A stretch of DNA of 64,000 nt, taken from Paenibacillus timonensis (GTDB taxonomy: Bacteria > Bacillota > Bacilli > Paenibacillales > Paenibacillaceae). The translations under genes were made by a program, and so were the position numbers. Below, piece after piece: positions 4,219-21,882 of this stretch. The stretch covers positions 124,001-188,000 of the forward strand of contig NZ_WNZY01000007.1 in assembly GCF_009725205.1 (NCBI RefSeq). Reading direction: 5' to 3'. Within the stretch, counting starts at the first letter, position 1. Every line of letters begins with the position of its first letter. The notes beneath the pieces are model-generated. The model did no database searches. It saw nothing but the letters and a program-made list of their open reading frames with translations, and was not told the origin of the DNA.

Positions 4219-5313
4219 ATGATCAGAATTGCCGGAATCGACGTTGGCAACGACAGCGTTAAGGTAGTGGTTGACGGTTCACAACGACCGATCATTATTC
4301 CGAGTATCGTTTCTCCCGGATATGATAGACATGTGCTGCAAGAGGAAGACTCTCCGCTGAAGGCGCTGGATGTTCGGGTCTATAGCCCTAAATTAAAGAG
4401 AAATAACCAGCGGTATTTCGTAGGCTTGCTGGCGATGGAGGATCAAGACAATTCCGAGTTGGAAGAGACGGACAACAAAGCCACCAGCGATCAGTCCCTG
4501 GTCGTGGCGCTGACGGCGCTGGCTTATGCAGCCCTGTCTGGACAAACTTATCCGACGGCGGGAACCGGGATCGAAGAGGCTGAATACATAATCGGGACAG
4601 GACTTCCGGTCCGTTCTTACGTTGCCTTTCATCAAGCGTTCGAGGAGCGGCTGACCGGCGAGCACGAAGTGACGTTCCTGTCCACGCCGGAGCTGCGCGG
4701 GCGCACGGTACGCCTTCAGATCCGCCGTACGATCGTGTCGGTGGAAGGCGCGGCGGCGCTGTTCCATTTGGCGACGAACGATACGCTCCAGGTGCGAAAC
4801 GAAGAACTCCATAACGGCTGTATCGGCATTTGCGAAATCGGCGCTTTGACAACGGATTTCCCGGTCGTGAAGCGGATGAATATCGACAACCAGTTCAGTA
4901 CAGGGGAGCAGTTCGGACTTGCAACCTATCTGGATTCGATTATCCGCGATATAGAGGACCAGTTCGGCTATCGCTTCCCGAGCCGTACGAAGCTGATTGG
5001 ACGCATCCGGAATCGCGAATTCGTCATCCAGCGTGTAGGTGAAGGACAAGCGGATATTCGGCCGATTGTCGATATGTATTTCAGCCGAGCCGCGCAGAAG
5101 TTGGTTGATCTGATTCGCAAGCGGTGGAAGAAGTACCCGGACATCGAATGCTTTTATGTGCTTGGCGGCGGCGCCGCGGCGTTGAAATCGTACTTGATCG
5201 ATGCGGCCGGCCCCATGCGTTTGCGGTTTGAAGAGAATAGCGAGATTCTGAACGTGCAGGGTTACTTGAAGCTGGCCAAGAATAAGGCCGGCCAACAGCC
5301 GAACCCGGCGTAA
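4219..5313 (+). CDS. ParM/StbA-like actin-family ATPase
   Basis: A bacterial actin relative of the ParM/Alp group; these assemble ATP-dependent filaments that usually segregate plasmids but also occur as chromosomal genes of unknown role. The 364-residue protein shows the phosphate-1 motif GIDVGNDSVKVV at residues 5-16, GICEIGALTTDF in the middle (phosphate-2 type, with Gly-Ala where many have Gly-Gly), and the adenosine motif FYVLGGGAAALKS near residue 320. It has a strong AAGGAGG site. No parR-like adaptor or centromere repeats were seen beside it, which argues against a plasmid-type segregation cassette. It diverges from the M23/bactofilin pair, so a role in shape or sporulation is possible; this is inference. 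Confidence 0.85.
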   Translation: MIRIAGIDVGNDSVKVVVDGSQRPIIIPSIVSPGYDRHVLQEEDSPLKALDVRVYSPKLKRNNQRYFVGLLAMEDQDNSELEETDNKATSDQSLVVALTALAYAALSGQTYPTAGTGIEEAEYIIGTGLPVRSYVAFHQAFEERLTGEHEVTFLSTPELRGRTVRLQIRRTIVSVEGAAALFHLATNDTLQVRNEELHNGCIGICEIGALTTDFPVVKRMNIDNQFSTGEQFGLATYLDSIIRDIEDQFGYRFPSRTKLIGRIRNREFVIQRVGEGQADIRPIVDMYFSRAAQKLVDLIRKRWKKYPDIECFYVLGGGAAALKSYLIDAAGPMRLRFEENSEILNVQGYLKLAKNKAGQQPNPA

Positions 5314-5329
5314 GATTCAAGTAATTGTT

Positions 5330-5358
5330 CCGGCGGTGCATGCACCGCCGGTTTTTTT
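5330..5358 (+). terminator. Rho-independent terminator after the actin-like gene
   Basis: CCGGCGGTGCA and TGCACCGCCGG (5330-5351) are perfect inverted repeats followed by seven T residues. Confidence 0.92.
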
Positions 5359-5410
5359 ATGAGTTTAGATGTTCATCTCCTGGATACCGGAGGCCCACAG
5401 GCAGAGATGG

Positions 5411-5585
5411 ATGCGAAAAACCGAATACAATGGGGCGATTTCGGCGTTAATAACGGAATGTATATGAAATTTCATATCTATTTGCCCATCAGGAAAGCGT
5501 AAGCCTAGATTCTGTATGAAATATCGAATAGATTTCGGATTTTTGGGCTTCAGCACCGTTTTGTATGCGAAAAACCGAATACAAT
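5411..5585 (+). repeat. Intergenic direct repeats in a 350-bp gene-free stretch
   Basis: The 350 bases between 5314 and 5663 hold no convincing gene. They contain a perfect 21-base direct repeat (core GCGAAAAACCGAATACA) at 5411-5431 and 5565-5585, and a degenerate copy around 5514-5532 (TATGAAATATCGAATAGA). A TATAAT at about 5627 may be the -10 box of the following gene. Confidence 0.7.
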
Positions 5586-5663
5586 TGACGAAGAAGGATC
5601 ATATTCTTTAAATTTGAGGATTCAGGTATAATAAGGAAAAAAAAGCGAAGGAGGCCGGGGGCC

Positions 5664-6077
5664 GTGAGCTACAAAAATACGTTTATTCGCGTCTCGCCCG
5701 ATTGTCCTGCAGATCGTGGCATCGAGCCGGTGTCGACGAGACCTGCGAAACCTGCGCACATGATCCAATACGAGCTGCTCTCGCAAGCTCCGTACCGGTA
5801 CAATCACGAGGAGCTGCTGTTCGAGGTACATATTCGCCATAAGCAGATTCCGAAGGAAGTTGTGCAGGAGCGGAGGCAGGAACTCTGGGAGGAGTTGTTC
5901 AGCAAACCGCACCCTTGCTTGCGGGCCTCGGTCCTTCCCAAGAAGTATGGATGGGGCGTGCATTATGACGAACAGGGGAAAATCGCCATCTACGGCATGG
6001 ACTCGCCGGATTATCAGCGGTTTACCGCTTCAACCGATGTCCAACTGCTGAACGCGATGAGAAACAGCCGGAAGTAA
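5664..6077 (+). CDS. DUF6157 family protein
   Basis: A 137-residue protein starting at GTG with GAAGGAGG upstream. The N-terminus YKNTFIRVSPDCPA and the C-terminal block KYGWGVHYDEQGKIAIYGMDSPDYQ are what I recognise as DUF6157, a small soluble family with no known function. No signal peptide or membrane segment is present. It is followed after 42 bases by a PNPOx-like gene in the same direction, so the two may be cotranscribed, but nothing else in the context hints at a role. Confidence 0.8.
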   Translation: MSYKNTFIRVSPDCPADRGIEPVSTRPAKPAHMIQYELLSQAPYRYNHEELLFEVHIRHKQIPKEVVQERRQELWEELFSKPHPCLRASVLPKKYGWGVHYDEQGKIAIYGMDSPDYQRFTASTDVQLLNAMRNSRK

Positions 6078-6119
6078 GGACGGCACCGTTGGCTGCATTT
6101 ATTGATGGGAGGGGTAGAC

Positions 6120-6668
6120 ATGGGGAAAATGTTCGATTCGATGCTGCCGGAGCATGAGGCATTTATTCGTCGGCAGCATCTCTTTTTTGTTGGTTCGGCA
6201 CCACTTAGCGCAGAAGGGCACGTCAATCTGTCGCCCAAAGGGTATGATTCGCTGCGGATCCTTTCGCCAAACGAGGTCGCTTACCTGGATTTGACCGGCA
6301 GCGGGAATGAAACGGCAGCCCATCTCGAGGAGAACGGACGGATCACGATCATGTTCGCCGCTTTCGAAGGGCAGCCTTTGATCCTGCGCCTGTATGGGAA
6401 AGGCCAAGTGATTCTGCCGGGATCGGCGGATTGGGGGCGACTCGAAGGCTTGTTTCCCAAGCTGAGCGGGGCGCGCCAAATCGTTCTTGTCTCTGTTTAC
6501 GGGGTGCAGACATCCTGCGGCTATGGTGTACCGCTGTTCAGCTATGACGGGGATCGCGAAACCTTGGTCAAATGGGCTGAAACCAAAGGATCTTCCGGCC
6601 TGGAGGAATATCGTCGCCAGAAAAACGCCGTAAGCCTGGACGGCTTACCGTCATCGTTTGCAGACTAG
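6120..6668 (+). CDS. Pyridoxamine 5'-phosphate oxidase-like flavoprotein
   Basis: A split-barrel FMN-binding protein of the PNPOx-like superfamily, which includes many flavin or F420-dependent reductases of unknown substrate. Visible are FVGSAPLSAEGHVNLSPKG, LDLTGSGNETAAHL and ITIMFAAFEGQPLILRLYGKG, the usual strand order. The start at 6120 is chosen for GGGAGGGG six bases upstream; a frame-extending ATG at 6102 lacks such a site. The product is 182 residues. The substrate cannot be named from sequence. It is probably cotranscribed with the DUF6157 gene and the AAC(3)-like gene. Confidence 0.85.
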   Translation: MGKMFDSMLPEHEAFIRRQHLFFVGSAPLSAEGHVNLSPKGYDSLRILSPNEVAYLDLTGSGNETAAHLEENGRITIMFAAFEGQPLILRLYGKGQVILPGSADWGRLEGLFPKLSGARQIVLVSVYGVQTSCGYGVPLFSYDGDRETLVKWAETKGSSGLEEYRRQKNAVSLDGLPSSFAD

Positions 6669-6692
6669 AGAAAGTAGGGAGATCGAAGCATA

Positions 6693-7517
6693 ATGGAAGA
6701 AATTCAAGGGGAATTGTACACGGTAGAAACATTGCGGTCAGACTTAGCGGCTCTAGGGGTTCGAGAAGGGTCGACACTGCTTGTCCATTCGTCTTTTAAA
6801 GCGCTGGGGAAATGGGTGTGCGGCGGCCCAGCGGCGGTTGTCCTGGCTCTAGAGGCAGCGTTGGGGGAGGAAGGGACCTTGGTAATGCCCACCCATTCGG
6901 GCGACGTTGGAGACCCGGCCAGATGGCAAAATCCGCCGGTACCCAAGGAATGGTGGGACACCATTCGCGAGCAGATGCCGGTTTATGATCCCGAGCTGAC
7001 GTCGTTATGGTACATGGGCGTGATTCCGGACACGTTCCGCAAGCAAAAGGGCACCTTGCGCAGTGGACATCCGCAAGTGTCGTTTGCAGCCAGAGGCCGC
7101 GAGGCCGAGAACATTACGGCGAATCACGGCCTGGAATTCGGGCTAGGCGAGCGTTCTCCGCTTGCGCGAATTTACGAGCTTCGAGGAGATGTTTTGCTGC
7201 TTGGCGTAGGTCACGGAAACAATACGTCGATCCATTTGGCGGAGTGTCGGATGAACGATCAGTTCAAAGAAATTTATAAGGCAAAAGCACCGATGCAGGT
7301 GAATGGGGAAAGACAGTGGGTGGAATTTCCCGAGCTCGAATACGATTCAGAGGATTTTATTCAGCTCGGTGCAGATTTTGCACGGGAAACCGGAATGGTG
7401 AAACAGGGACAAATCGCCGGGGCAACCGCCTTGCTGATGCCCCAACGAGAATTGGTTGATTATGCCGTAGGATGGTTGGAACGCCACCGCAAGCGGCAAG
7501 ATCATCTTACCGTCTGA
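6693..7517 (+). CDS. AAC(3)-family aminoglycoside N-acetyltransferase-like protein
   Basis: A member of the antibiotic N-acetyltransferase (AAC(3)/YokD/FrbF) fold, which transfers acetyl from acetyl-CoA. Seen: LLVHSSFKALGKWVCGGPAAVVLALEAAL, VMPTHSGD, a GVIPDTFRKQKGTLRSGHPQVSFAARG block and LLLGVGHGNNTSIHLAE. Length (274 residues) suits the family. Many chromosomal members have no proven resistance role, so aminoglycoside acetylation is a family-based suggestion only. Its last 16 bases overlap the convergent reductase gene. Confidence 0.88.
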   Translation: MEEIQGELYTVETLRSDLAALGVREGSTLLVHSSFKALGKWVCGGPAAVVLALEAALGEEGTLVMPTHSGDVGDPARWQNPPVPKEWWDTIREQMPVYDPELTSLWYMGVIPDTFRKQKGTLRSGHPQVSFAARGREAENITANHGLEFGLGERSPLARIYELRGDVLLLGVGHGNNTSIHLAECRMNDQFKEIYKAKAPMQVNGERQWVEFPELEYDSEDFIQLGADFARETGMVKQGQIAGATALLMPQRELVDYAVGWLERHRKRQDHLTV

Positions 7518-8077
7518 TATACGAGACCGATGGCTCCAGAGTCAAAGGTCTTGTTTTCGATGAGCTTAAGGTTAATCTTCTCCTTGAGACCTTGGAATAA
7601 GGGCAAACCTTTACCGATCAGGACAGGGGATACGGTAATTTTATACTCATCTATTAAGTCAAGTTGCATAAAGTGGTGCGCTAACCTAGGACTGCCGAGA
7701 ATGACCATGTCCTTACCAGGCTGCTGTTTGAGGTGACGGATTTCATTCTCGATATCTTTGTTCACAAGTCTGGAGTTATTCCAATCGGCGTTCTCCAGCG
7801 TAGTGGAAAAAACGATTTTCTCTGTCTTATCGATCCACTCGGCATGATCCCGTTCATGCTGCGAAGCTGACGGGTTTGAAGGCACGGACGGCCAGTAACT
7901 GTGCATCATCTGATAAGTACCGCGGCCCCAAATAACCGTATCGGCCGTACTCAGAATTTCTTTCGCGTGTCTCTCGAGATCCGTATCGTAGGAAACCCAG
8001 CCAATATCCATTTCTCCGTTAGGACCTTCCACAAAACCGTCAAGCGATGCGTGTAGAAATAGAACGAGTTTTCTCAT
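7502..8077 (-). CDS. Dihydrofolate reductase-like (RibD C-terminal domain) protein
   Basis: A 191-residue stand-alone RibD_C/DHFR-fold protein. The N-terminus RKLVLFLHASLDGFVEGPNGEMDIGW, the cofactor region ADTVIWGRGTYQMM, and MVILGSPRLAHHFMQLDLIDEYKITVSPVLIGKGLPLF are typical of this large NADPH-dependent reductase-like family. The true substrate is unknown; it is not the folA gene. AAAGGAG lies upstream of the ATG. It is convergent with the AAC(3)-like gene and lies 21 bases downstream of the rhodanese gene. Confidence 0.87.
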   Translation of the reverse strand: MRKLVLFLHASLDGFVEGPNGEMDIGWVSYDTDLERHAKEILSTADTVIWGRGTYQMMHSYWPSVPSNPSASQHERDHAEWIDKTEKIVFSTTLENADWNNSRLVNKDIENEIRHLKQQPGKDMVILGSPRLAHHFMQLDLIDEYKITVSPVLIGKGLPLFQGLKEKINLKLIENKTFDSGAIGLVYQTVR

Positions 8078-8098
8078 CTTCTGTTCTCCTTTGTTTTC

Positions 8099-8449
8099 TT
8101 AATGGGATGCATCTTCTTCCAGCCCGGACGTCACCTCGAGGTCCCAGCCAAGCATGCCGCCGAGAAAATTGTGAATCCGCGTGAAGCCCTGTGCCTGTAG
8201 GTAACGGGCGACTTCGTAACTGCGGGAGCCGCTTCGGCAGACCAACACATATTCCTGCTCCGGGTCGAGTTCTTCCAGCCGGTAGGGGATTTCACCCATC
8301 GGAATCAGGGGGACCCCTGGAATATGCGCAGCTTCGTATTCAAACGGCTCACGGACATCGATGACGACGATGTCGCTGGCAGGATCCTGAAGGATGGCGT
8401 GCAACTCCGCTTTGTCGAAATGGGAGATGCCTCCGATTAGTTGGGGCAT
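8099..8449 (-). CDS. Rhodanese-like sulfurtransferase
   Basis: A single-domain rhodanese of 116 residues. The domain includes IVVIDVREPFEYEAAHIPGVPLIPMGEI and the active-site loop VCRSGSRSYEVARYL with the catalytic cysteine. Such proteins carry persulfide sulfur in the cytoplasm. It lies directly downstream of the cysteine synthase gene on the same strand (45-base gap), consistent with a shared role in sulfur handling; that link is inference from context. Confidence 0.93.
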   Translation of the reverse strand: MPQLIGGISHFDKAELHAILQDPASDIVVIDVREPFEYEAAHIPGVPLIPMGEIPYRLEELDPEQEYVLVCRSGSRSYEVARYLQAQGFTRIHNFLGGMLGWDLEVTSGLEEDASH

Positions 8450-8493
8450 AAATTCATTCCTCTTTTCCCGATAAAATGGTTTGTTTCATCTAC

Positions 8494-9438
8494 TTATTCT
8501 TCTACGCGTGCGGGCTCATCGAAGATGCCCATGCTAAGATACCTCTCCCCGGTGTCCGGAGCGATGCACAAAACGCGGCGCCCAGGGCCTAAGTGCCGAG
8601 CTAAACGAATCGCCGCCCAAACCGAGGCCCCGGACGAAGGTCCGACCAATAGGCCTTCTAGTGCCGCTAATCGCCGTGTCGTCTCCAGCGCATCCGCATC
8701 GCTGACCTGGACGATTTCATCATAGACAGCGGTATTCAGGATCGGTGGGATAAAACCCGGGCTGGTACCGACCAACTTATGCGGGCCGGGTACCCCTCCG
8801 GAGAGGACGGGGGAGCCTTGCGGCTCGACGACGGTGATATGGATGTTCGGCAATACGCCCCGCAGATACTCGCCGGTTCCGGTGATGGTGCCGCCCGTGC
8901 CTGCCGTGGCTACGAACCCGTCGAGCCGGCCATCCATTTGCCGCATGATTTCTGGCCCTGTCGTGAGCCGGTGAATTTCCGGGTTGGCAGGGTTTTGAAA
9001 CTGCTGCGGCATAAAACTGCCGGGGATTTGGTCCAGCAGCTCCCGGGCTTTGGCGATTGCGCCGGGCATGCGCTCCGCAGCCGGCGTCAGCACGACCTCG
9101 GCCCCGTAAGCTTGCAGCAGGACGATTCGCTCTTTCGTCATGTTGTCCGGCATGACGAGGATAATCCGATACCCTTTGGCCGCGGCGTTCATCGCCAGCC
9201 CGATGCCCGTATTCCCGCTTGTCGGCTCGATGATCGTGGCCCCCGGAGCAATCAGACCGGCCTGTTCTGCCTTTGCGAGCATGTGGGCAGCGGCTCGATC
9301 CTTAACGCTTCCGCTCGGATTGGCAAACTCCAGCTTGACGTATACGTCCGCCTCCTCGTTGGAGACCAGTTTGTTTAACTTGACGGCCGGGGTTTCGCCA
9401 ATCAGGTCTGTAATGCTTCGGACCGCTTTACGATTCAT
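8494..9438 (-). CDS. cysK: Cysteine synthase (O-acetylserine sulfhydrylase)
   Basis: A PLP enzyme that makes L-cysteine from O-acetylserine and sulfide. The PLP lysine is K46 in PSGSVKDRAA. The substrate loop EPTSGNTGIG and the phosphate-binding GTGGTITG are both present, and the 314-residue length is normal. The GAGAGAGGG stretch upstream of ATG 9438 acts as ribosome site. A second CysK or CysM elsewhere in the genome is likely, so the symbol refers to family rather than proven main enzyme. It heads a cysK-rhodanese unit. Confidence 0.93.
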   Translation of the reverse strand: MNRKAVRSITDLIGETPAVKLNKLVSNEEADVYVKLEFANPSGSVKDRAAAHMLAKAEQAGLIAPGATIIEPTSGNTGIGLAMNAAAKGYRIILVMPDNMTKERIVLLQAYGAEVVLTPAAERMPGAIAKARELLDQIPGSFMPQQFQNPANPEIHRLTTGPEIMRQMDGRLDGFVATAGTGGTITGTGEYLRGVLPNIHITVVEPQGSPVLSGGVPGPHKLVGTSPGFIPPILNTAVYDEIVQVSDADALETTRRLAALEGLLVGPSSGASVWAAIRLARHLGPGRRVLCIAPDTGERYLSMGIFDEPARVEE

Positions 9439-9555
9439 ATGGCCGAGCCCTCTCTCTCTTAAATTTTAAGTTTTTATCTATTCTACTCGGGAACCTCCTA
9501 TTCTTTCAAGCCACGCCGTTTATTCGACATTTAACCGTTTCCAACCCGGGCATCC

Positions 9556-9616
9556 TATGATAAAGTAGCAGTAACAACGAAGATGAGCCGAAATAGGCCC
9601 CATCTTCTTTTTTTTT
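9556..9616 (+). terminator. Short leader or small transcript: -10-like box and terminator hairpin
   Basis: GAAGATG (9579-9585) pairs with CATCTTC (9601-9607), followed by nine T residues. TATGAT at 9556-9561 could be a -10 box only about 20 bases before the hairpin; the matching -35 is poor. The 229 bases between cysK and the next gene show nothing else definite. No known riboswitch fold was recognised. Confidence 0.6.
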
Positions 9617-9667
9617 GTGAATGGGTGAATTGAATCACAAATAGAAAGACGCAAAAGGGGTGTACAA

Positions 9668-10147
9668 ATGGGGGGGACGGTAGATAAACCGGTGGCAAGT
9701 TTGTTATTGATAGGATTGCAGGGGTTACTCGGAATCGGTGCTGTATTCGGCGGTGGAGCGTTGATGCTAGATCCGTCAGGCGCCTTGTTGGGGATGCCGA
9801 CAGAGTTGATGCAGATCCCGTTGTTCCCGAATTATTTGATTCCGGGGGTGATCCTTCTGATGGCCTTTGGCGTGTTGCCGCTTACGGTCACGACGGCTCT
9901 CGTATGGAAATGGAATTGGGGTTTAGGAGAGAAACTGAACCCATTTAAAGACCGGCATTGGTCTTGGGCCTTTTCCCTTTATATCGGCTTTGGATTAATC
10001 GTCTGGCTTTCGGTCCAAATCTACATTCTCGGCAGTTCTTCGGTCGTACATTTGGTTTATACGGCTTGGGGCTTGGCGATCCAAGCGTTAACCATACTGC
10101 CTTCGGTCACAGGATTTTATCGAAAGTCATTTACGGACAACGCCTAG
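9668..10147 (+). CDS. Small four-helix membrane protein of unknown function
   Basis: A 159-residue hydrophobic protein with about four membrane segments: near residues 8-32 (SLLLIGLQGLLGIGAVFGG), 56-80 (YLIPGVILLMAFGVLPLTVT), 98-122 (WAFSLYIGFGLIVWLSVQIYI) and 128-148. I recognise no named domain. An AAAGGGG site precedes the ATG. A lipoprotein gene follows after 12 bases, so the two are probably cotranscribed; no function is proposed. Confidence 0.75.
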   Translation: MGGTVDKPVASLLLIGLQGLLGIGAVFGGGALMLDPSGALLGMPTELMQIPLFPNYLIPGVILLMAFGVLPLTVTTALVWKWNWGLGEKLNPFKDRHWSWAFSLYIGFGLIVWLSVQIYILGSSSVVHLVYTAWGLAIQALTILPSVTGFYRKSFTDNA

Positions 10148-18280: not shown

Positions 18281-19903
<1,623 letters not shown>

Positions 19904-19904
19904 T

Positions 19905-20000
19905 TAGGGTTCAAAACCCTAGGGGGTCCCTGGGGAGAACGCCTTTTGAACAAATTTATGAAAATAGACCTCTCAGAATTCAAGCTGAGAGGTCTATTTT
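19905..20000 (+). terminator. Two hairpins after groEL, the second a strong terminator
   Basis: TAGGGTT/AACCCTA (19905-19921) forms a small stem just after the groEL stop. A second, perfect 16-base stem has arms 19961-19976 (starting AAAATAGACCTC) and 19985-20000, with an eight-base loop. Its T-run is short (TTTT then AAATTT). The next gene begins only 20 bases later. Confidence 0.85.
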
Positions 20001-20020
20001 AAATTTAAGGAGAAATTACG

Positions 20021-20764
20021 ATGACCATACACGATTATTATGAAAATCGGGTAGTCGCTTTTATTGATATTTTGGGTTTCCGAGAACATGTTAGACTAAC
20101 GCTAACAGATACAACCCATGCAAAGAACATCCAACGAGTACTCGAGTTCATAACCGAACTAAAACATGATAATGATCAGGGGCTTTTATCAGAAAAAGAG
20201 TTGGGTAAAGAAGTATCGGTTTTTTCTGATTCTATTGTGATCTCTTATCCGCTATCCTTAAAGTCAGCATGTTTCTATCTGTTGCTCGACATCATTCATC
20301 TTCAATTGGAAATGATGGGGTTAGGAATATTAATGAGGGGTGGGGTTACAGCAGGCAAACTCTATCATAATGATCATATTGTTTATGGTCCTGCGATGAT
20401 CGAAGCTTATGAGCTAGAAAGTAAGCGTGCCATTTATCCCCGTGTCTTAGTGAATCCAATTATTATTGAAGAGGGAATGAAAAATGCTCTTCATGATCCG
20501 GAAGATGAACTCGAGCAACTCCTTGGTCTGCTGGAGAAGGATGAGGATCATCAGTTGTTTATCGATTATATGTTTCAGTGGCAAGAGATAGATGAAGAAT
20601 CTGCTTACTTTGATGCGTTAGACACAACAAAATCCTTAATCAAGGATCAACTACATTCGCTTCAGGATCCTGGGGTATTACTTAAGTACAACTGGCTCAA
20701 GCGTTATTACAATAAGACCTTAGATAAGCTGAAACCTCAGTACACTAAAGGACGCTATCTTTAA
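20021..20764 (+). CDS. Class III nucleotide cyclase-like protein, orphan
   Basis: A 247-residue protein with the signature of the adenylate/guanylate cyclase catalytic fold: AFIDILGF (D16) and FSDSIVI (D70) would be the two metal-binding aspartates, and LMRGGVTAGKLYHND..VYGPAMIEAYELE (about residues 104-133) matches the region after them in class III cyclases and in the Pycsar PycC cyclases. No receptor, HAMP or effector domain is fused. The sequence is visibly AT-richer than both flanks, hinting at transfer. AAGGAG lies upstream, and the start is only 20 bases beyond the groEL terminator. No obvious Pycsar effector (TIR or membrane type) adjoins it. The C-terminal 110 residues are unassigned. 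Activity and product are unknown. Confidence 0.65.
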   Translation: MTIHDYYENRVVAFIDILGFREHVRLTLTDTTHAKNIQRVLEFITELKHDNDQGLLSEKELGKEVSVFSDSIVISYPLSLKSACFYLLLDIIHLQLEMMGLGILMRGGVTAGKLYHNDHIVYGPAMIEAYELESKRAIYPRVLVNPIIIEEGMKNALHDPEDELEQLLGLLEKDEDHQLFIDYMFQWQEIDEESAYFDALDTTKSLIKDQLHSLQDPGVLLKYNWLKRYYNKTLDKLKPQYTKGRYL

Positions 20765-20910
20765 AAGAACTCTGCTACAGCTCTCTATTTCCTTACATCC
20801 TATGAAACTTTATGAAAATTTAACAATTTAATTTTCAGTTTCCAGCTTACGGTGTTCTCGATCTGTGATAGAATGAATAAAAATTTTATTCCATCAGGAG
20901 GAGGACGAAG

Positions 20911-21882
20911 ATGTGGACCTATCTGATCCGTCGTGGGATTCATTCGTTAATTGTATTGTTTATCGTGATGAGCGTGTGCTTTTGTATCATGCGTTTGATG
21001 CCGGGGAACTTCTGGTCATTAAGCATAGGGATGACGGAAGAGCAGATCCAAATGGCAAACGAGCAGAAGCATCTGTTTGGACTGGATCTCCCGATTTATC
21101 AGCAATATATCCGGTGGATCAACGATCTCCTGCATGGGAACTTTGGTCTGGATTATTACCGCACACCGATTAATCACTACATTTGGAAATATGTATGGAA
21201 CAGTTTCACCTTGTTAAGCACATCATTGATCATTGCCCTACTGATCGCTATCCCATGGGGGATCTATAACAGCAAAAGGCAGGACGGACTCTCCGACAAG
21301 CTGGGTCTCATCCTGAGCCTGATCGGGTACTCCATTCCCGTATTTGTGCTGGGGCACTGGCTGCAGAACATCTTTGCCTTCCAATTGTTTTGGTTCCCGC
21401 CAAGCAGCATGCATACCCCGAACAAAACCGGGGAGTTGGGCGACCTCCTCTACCACATGGTTCTCCCGGTAACCACGATAACGATCGGCCTCATTGCATA
21501 CTACTTAAAAATGATCCGTACCAGTATGATCGAGGTACTGCCTTCCGAATTTCTAAACTTGGCCCGCGCCAAAGGACTATCGGAACGAAGAGTCACCTAT
21601 CGACATGCATTGAGAATGGCCTTGATCCCCATGATCACGATCCTCATGTTGGACCTGCCGGTTCTAATTTCCGGCGCAGCCGTGGTAGAGAATGTATTTA
21701 ACTGGAACGGTCTCGGAAGCTTGGCGGTGAGCTCCGCGCAAAGCCGGAATTATCCCGTGTTGCTCATGAGCATCTTGATTATCTCCGCATTTGTGGTGGT
21801 CACCAACTTCCTGGCGGACTTGCTCTACACGATCGTGGATCCTCGCGTGAAAATTCACCGAAAAGGCATCCTGCGGCGTTGA
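20911..21882 (+). CDS. Lone ABC transporter permease, DppB/OppB type
   Basis: A 323-residue permease of the peptide/nickel (OppB) class. Seen: the N-terminal RRGIHSLIVLFIVMSVCFCIMRLMPG, six helices, and the EAA-type loop EFLNLARAKGLSERRVTYRHALRMALIPMIT, with the end VNFLADLLYTIVDPRV typical of the family. AGGAGGAGG precedes the ATG. No OppC, ATPase or binding-protein partner lies beside it, so the transporter is incomplete here. Its stop directly abuts the stop of the convergent response regulator. Partners may be encoded elsewhere, or the gene may be a remnant. Confidence 0.9.
   Translation: MWTYLIRRGIHSLIVLFIVMSVCFCIMRLMPGNFWSLSIGMTEEQIQMANEQKHLFGLDLPIYQQYIRWINDLLHGNFGLDYYRTPINHYIWKYVWNSFTLLSTSLIIALLIAIPWGIYNSKRQDGLSDKLGLILSLIGYSIPVFVLGHWLQNIFAFQLFWFPPSSMHTPNKTGELGDLLYHMVLPVTTITIGLIAYYLKMIRTSMIEVLPSEFLNLARAKGLSERRVTYRHALRMALIPMITILMLDLPVLISGAAVVENVFNWNGLGSLAVSSAQSRNYPVLLMSILIISAFVVVTNFLADLLYTIVDPRVKIHRKGILRR

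Follow-up and report, generated by a model that had tools for sequence, protein, structure and literature searches.

Among the described systems closest to the gene presented here are the class III nucleotide cyclases, the PycC cyclases of the Pycsar anti-phage system and the DUF2652 proteins. PMC4886424 reports that the transition-state Asn is dispensable in Rv1900c and absent also in DUF2652 proteins; in the mycobacterial DUF2652 set, Ile replaces Asn, and the transition-state Arg and the Lys-Glu pair are kept. The gene studied here encodes a protein of 247 amino acids and occupies positions 20021..20764 (+ strand, stop codon included) of a stretch of 64,000 nucleotides from Paenibacillus timonensis, hereafter the window, where it was delimited as an open reading frame (ORF) with an ATG start and is backed by homologues and a predicted fold. 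An initial annotation had proposed an orphan class III cyclase of the PycC kind. Altogether, the gene is best regarded as a member of an uncharacterised, mobile and probably active class III cyclase-like family, which would plausibly have a role in phage defence.

The predicted structure of the protein (predicted local distance difference test, pLDDT, 95.2), together with Foldseek and VIA comparisons, revealed a class III nucleotide cyclase fold across residues 1-185, followed by two C-terminal helices. The motifs on which the initial annotation was built were all present in the translation, with D16 within FIDILGF, D70 within FSDSIV, R106 as the first residue of RGGVTAGK, and residues 121-133 reading VYGPAMIEAYELE. 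In the predicted structure, D16 (codon 20066..20068, + strand) closes the strand of residues 8-17, and D70 (codon 20228..20230, + strand) lies in the hairpin turn joining strands 64-67 and 71-77, positions which we take to correspond to those known for the metal aspartates in class III topology. By this predicted strand topology, the cyclase palm anticipated by the annotation was found, and both residues sit where class III cyclases hold their metal aspartates. In a family alignment of 242 rows, D16 was kept in 240/240 and D70 in 238/241 of the rows with a residue at that place, and R106 (codon 20336..20338, + strand), presumably the phosphate-binding Arg by analogy with classical cyclases, in 241/242. 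Since profile comparison with cyclases aligned D16 to the cyclase Asp but not D70, an insert lying between the two, the assignment of D70 rests on predicted structure and conservation. Furthermore, the family has near-invariant residues of its own, namely Y130, E133, R141, K222 (222/222 rows) and W225 (218/222 rows), the last two being located in the C-terminal extension formed by two long helices (residues 186-247, 20576..20761, + strand). The purine-selecting Lys is not kept, position 66 being S/T in the alignment as judged by eye.

Pfam contained no domain matching the protein at E ≤ 10, the PF00211 and DUF2652 models being thus unmatched; with a cut-off of E ≤ 1, PF00211 matched 2/36 aligned members, the better one at 0.0073. 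Searches of PDB sequences with the single protein and with a 36-row profile returned no cyclase (best E 0.71 and 0.04, respectively), and Foldseek against viral models gave no hit at E ≤ 0.001. No PADLOC or NCBIfam model matched the gene at E ≤ 10. On the other hand, phmmer retrieved 445 homologues at E ≤ 1e-3, of which 120 were listed in detail, and because of this number the ORF is more than a chance one. The closest among the matches listed were full-length proteins with 80% and 79% identity, the latter from Paenibacillus polysaccharolyticus, plus a 98% cluster that possibly contains the window's own protein; most names in the list were 'hypothetical protein', and 'guanylate cyclase domain' or 'class 3 adenylate cyclase' occurred a few times. 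When GTDB genomes were scanned with a profile, at least 381 relatives were obtained, 80 of which were kept for analysis; represented among these are Bacillota, Pseudomonadota, Bacteroidota, Verrucomicrobiota, Chloroflexota, Planctomycetota and Armatimonadota, together with one archaeal bin. In addition, 57 plasmid records matched, and viral contigs yielded 44 loci by profile scan and zero relatives by single-protein scan. Named phages gave no tblastn match with the proteins of loci L027 and L106, and E. coli genomes no blastn match with the L027 stretch. Two PHROG families matched, phrog_23933 at E 8.8e-39 (residues 7-236) and phrog_21097 at 6e-12, neither with an assigned function; no mention of phrog_23933 was found in the literature searched, and a search at title and abstract level found nothing on the cyclase-like family. 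A FastTree reconstruction of 151 rows placed the window protein inside a clade made up of 13 Bacilli-type rows (support 99), the only part used of a tree with many long branches. The homologue search suggested in the annotation thus led to a large family of predicted soluble class III-fold proteins, which occurs in many bacterial phyla, an archaeal bin, plasmids and viral contigs, yet searches of Pfam, NCBIfam and PADLOC found no model for it.

In the window, the gene is intact and stands alone, with groEL (18284-19903) on one side and an ORF resembling an ABC-type permease (20911-21882) on the other, all three in the same orientation. It is preceded by AAGGAG at 20007..20012 (+ strand), which resembles a ribosome-binding site, and the opposite strand of 20021-20764 contains many stops in the single frame read. 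As stated in the annotation, the gene is AT-richer than its neighbours, with a GC content of 38.6% vs 53.8% in groEL, 49.3% in the permease gene and 53.7% in the window; GC was below that of the rest of the locus for the cyclase-like gene in 74/78 genome loci. Its distribution is patchy: it was present in 1/40 genus genomes (the window's own only, a genome of 5.12 Mb in 81 contigs), a profile match was found in 23/394 family-level genomes, and a protein match at 1e-20 in 6/398 class-level genomes, own included. DNA comparison with G014, the nearest syntenic genome, showed similarity ending at 19921 and restarting at 20792, so that the gene is contained in a segment without similarity (19922..20791, no strand assigned). 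These observations characterise it as a foreign-looking, mobile accessory gene. The spot behind groEL (window 19904-20910; kin loci L169-L174) carries differing cargo between close kin. In G014, G022, G019 and G003 the groEL-permease interval is occupied by genes for an AraC-like regulator and an oxidoreductase-like protein (names by eye), and for G022 and G003 a ThuA-like gene was called as well. Behind groEL, G018 carries the AraC-like/oxidoreductase-like set and lacks the permease, and G032 has an alpha/beta-hydrolase-like gene there (name by eye). The permease occurs in kin without the cyclase-like gene and is therefore no partner of it.

The solitary condition reported in the annotation extended to the family. 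Among genome loci with both neighbours visible, no same-strand neighbour was present within 60 nt for 45/75 family genes vs 96/258 controls (genes of 200-350 amino acids in the same loci), and clustering of neighbours within four genes over 122 loci, including the window's, revealed no general partner gene. Type I restriction-modification (R-M)-like genes, named partly by eye, were located within four genes in 8/121 loci (L003, L014, L028, L046, L071, L074, L077, L110), and the cyclase-like genes of L046 and L071 sit between hsdM-like and hsdS/hsdR-like genes. Two family members lie near each other (7941-8804, 8970-9797) in the type I R-M-like locus L074. In L264, a distant family member is flanked on one side by a gene for a HEPN (RiboL-PSP) and leucine-rich-repeat protein (5092-6723) and on the other by a gene judged by eye to encode an OLD-like ATPase. 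A recurrent pair was found in a distant subclade, where a ParA-like ATPase of 342-374 amino acids lies directly upstream in 5/20 Paenibacillaceae loci (20 read out of 22, the window's not counted) and in three viral loci, with gaps of -4, -1 or 0 nt; the L251 ATPase matched AAA_31 at E 7.6e-31. The ATPase itself was present in 66 viral-contig loci, with the cyclase-like gene directly behind it in the five best only, three of which were viral loci already found. The two-gene unit comprises 10 loci (L251, L254, L255, L258, L262, L105, L106, L109, L278, L282), in most of which the genes overlap by 1 or 4 nt. This partner is limited to distant tree rows, and the window gene lacks it.

We propose that the protein would work as a dimer with its site at the dimer interface, binding a nucleoside triphosphate (NTP) via two metal ions, held by D16 and D70, and R106, and converting it to a cyclic nucleotide or to one modified in another way. 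Y130, E133, R141, K222 and W225 may stand in for the classical Asn/Arg and the base-selecting pair. The gene is a mostly self-contained accessory, moving among chromosomes, plasmids and proviruses and at times into defence-rich places, and probably serves in conflicts involving phages or other mobile elements. Because no dedicated receptor travels with the gene, the product might hit a host protein, or the reaction might drain NTP. If a cyclic nucleotide is made, the family would be an extra branch of mobile nucleotide signalling missed by the PADLOC Pycsar models; if not, it would be a cyclase palm performing other chemistry. To the whole of this proposal, an NTP-acting class III cyclase-like mobile family with a role in conflict, we give about equal weight for and against. 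A more specific version, a widespread, receptor-free and mostly single-gene immune or conflict system with an active site rebuilt around R141, K222 and W225 and coupled in one lineage to the ParA-like ATPase, is put forward only tentatively and may well prove wrong.

Defence genes, restriction genes among them, flank some of the relatives. Of 151 immediate neighbours listed (70-1300 amino acids), 146 were scanned with PADLOC at 1e-10 and matched 314 models (leading 25 inspected), headed by MTase_I (4 members), mad2 (4), AriA (3), Avs1a (2) and LmuA (2), and the commonest Pfam families were N6_Mtase, HsdM_N and AAA_21, each in 3/146 (best 25 of 112 families). The control consisted of 20 Paenibacillaceae stretches, 19 drawn by chance and one shifted manually away from the groEL spot; the 146 genes used, out of their 197, matched nine models, with mad3 in five members, mad8 in three, and WYL (two models), Cas3c, mad1, pVip, mad2 and AriA in one member each; no restriction-modification model was found among the 146 control genes. 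Several observations weigh against the proposal. The PADLOC models are redundant, the control is confined to Paenibacillaceae whereas the loci come from many phyla, and the control itself also matched defence models (mad3, mad8 and AriA). Viral loci were not clearly more isolated than controls (16/41 vs 46/150), and tblastn with the window protein found no match in named phages. Several loci and eight plasmid stretches have ordinary or plasmid-maintenance neighbours, the latter including rep genes, integrases, toxin-antitoxin modules, insertion sequence elements and genes that confer metal resistance or are unrelated, and in two of the stretches repC lies upstream; the window gene is flanked by groEL and a permease gene, not by defence genes. 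No member among those collected has a known activity. As regards the active site, the classical transition-state Asn (position 127) is N in 44/242 rows and the transition-state Arg (position 131) is R in 11/242; since Rv1900c and DUF2652 likewise lack the Asn (PMC4886424), the missing residues alone do not exclude cyclase function.

The possibility that the gene encodes a divergent Pycsar-type pyrimidine cyclase, whose effector would come from another part of the genome or from a mobile element, has in its favour the stand-alone class III fold and a profile comparison giving 84% with a PycC set vs 13% with a Paenibacillaceae PF00211 set, both sets being small; the value with the single PycC of L195, of another kind, was 0.2%. 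Foldseek also listed the PycC structures 6yii (E 1.5e-3) and 8jsz (E 3.3e-3), but non-Pycsar cyclases ranked higher; the lack of a PycC structure among the 50 VIA entries listed carries no weight. None of the PycC models of PADLOC-DB 2.0.0 (2023) matched the gene at E ≤ 10, and with a cut-off of E ≤ 1 none matched any of the 36 members aligned; two PycC genes located next to PycTM, used as positive control, matched 7 and 11 of these models. No PycTM was found in the whole genome at E ≤ 0.001, no PycTM or PycTIR is adjacent to the gene, and the seven cyclic-nucleotide-binding proteins of the genome are CRP/FNR-like, all apparently ending in a helix-turn-helix segment, with no effector-fused protein among them (by eye). 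The genome does encode one PF10137-type TIR protein (342 amino acids, G000:C21:28158-29183, locus L276), with the CAP12/Pycsar-type TIR in its first third and a remainder without identification, and in L256 the gene after the family member (8046-9203) is weakly TIR-like (PF10137, E 0.0011, under the curated cut-off). The TIR protein is present in 13/38 other genus genomes (14/39 with the own genome), with 84-98% identity in the six nearest, and all 13 lack the cyclase-like gene. The idea of a split system with a remote effector, raised in the annotation, is weakened, because the only PF10137 TIR protein found also occurs in cyclase-less kin. Altogether, the class III part of the original proposal holds, with a class III-like fold and conserved D16 and D70; the PycC label is not supported by the tests made here, a deep kinship with PycC being possible. 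We consider a Pycsar-type cyclase quite unlikely.

A protein that binds NTP without being a cyclase, acting as a sensor or regulator or using the cyclase palm, with R141, K222 and W225 completing it, for other chemistry, would fit the retention of the metal aspartates and R106 alongside the loss of the transition-state Asn/Arg, the conservation of K222 and W225, and the ATPase coupled in one subclade. However, the invariance of both metal aspartates argues for the metal-dependent catalysis typical of the fold, and Rv1900c and DUF2652 do without the Asn (PMC4886424), so this explanation, although deserving attention, is rather unlikely. Ordinary host signalling, in which cyclic AMP or cyclic GMP would be made for CRP-like regulators, has in its favour the seven CRP/FNR-type proteins of a genome with no PF00211 cyclase at E ≤ 10; presence in a single genus genome, plasmid and viral carriage, and the S/T at position 66 in place of purine-selecting residues (by eye) make it improbable. 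As for a decaying pseudo-enzyme or chance ORF, the absence from the other 39 genus genomes speaks in its favour, but full-length relatives, a near-invariant putative active site and a confident fold leave it hardly any credit; the degenerate relative considered in the annotation likewise fits badly with the almost total conservation of D16, D70 and R106.

Analysis of the region upstream of the gene revealed a 16-bp perfect hairpin at 19961..20000 (+ strand), ending 20 nt before the start codon, with a predicted folding energy of -24.7 kcal/mol (z -6.4). It lies at the same place as hairpins behind groEL in kin and is probably the groEL terminator. A role as a leader element of the family was considered and rejected, as structures with z < -3 within 80 nt upstream were found in 4/120 family genes vs 6/109 controls. 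Rfam gave no match in 19800-21000. A promoter and terminator scan of 19850-20950 yielded a single promoter-like site, inside the groEL end, fewer than in shuffles, and it missed the hairpin (its terminator rule requires 5 T in 8 bases).

Regarding known systems, phrog_23933 represents the same family from the viral side, again with no assigned function. With the class III cyclases Rv1625c (7yz9), CyaC (1wc1) and Rv1900c (1ybt) the protein shares the predicted fold over residues 1-185, both metal aspartates, an Arg in the motif that precedes the GIHsG-like strand (by eye) and a helix after the YGPA motif; it differs in the lack of a PF00211 match, in the transition-state Asn/Arg and purine-selecting Lys, which are not conserved in the family, and in the family's own C-terminal helices with the invariant K222. 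Pycsar PycC (6YII, 7R65, 8JSZ) is similar in its stand-alone class III fold with two metal aspartates and in base-selecting residues that differ from those of purine cyclases (PMC11224242). Unlike PycC, the window gene has no PycC model match and no linked PycTM or PycTIR, and its Asp-Asp spacing is 54 residues vs 44 in EaPycC and AnPycC (residue numbers in PMC11224242). In contrast with DUF2652, the window protein has no Pfam match; DUF2652 proteins resemble it as single-domain class III relatives of about 250 amino acids with no recognised partner domain (PMC4886424).
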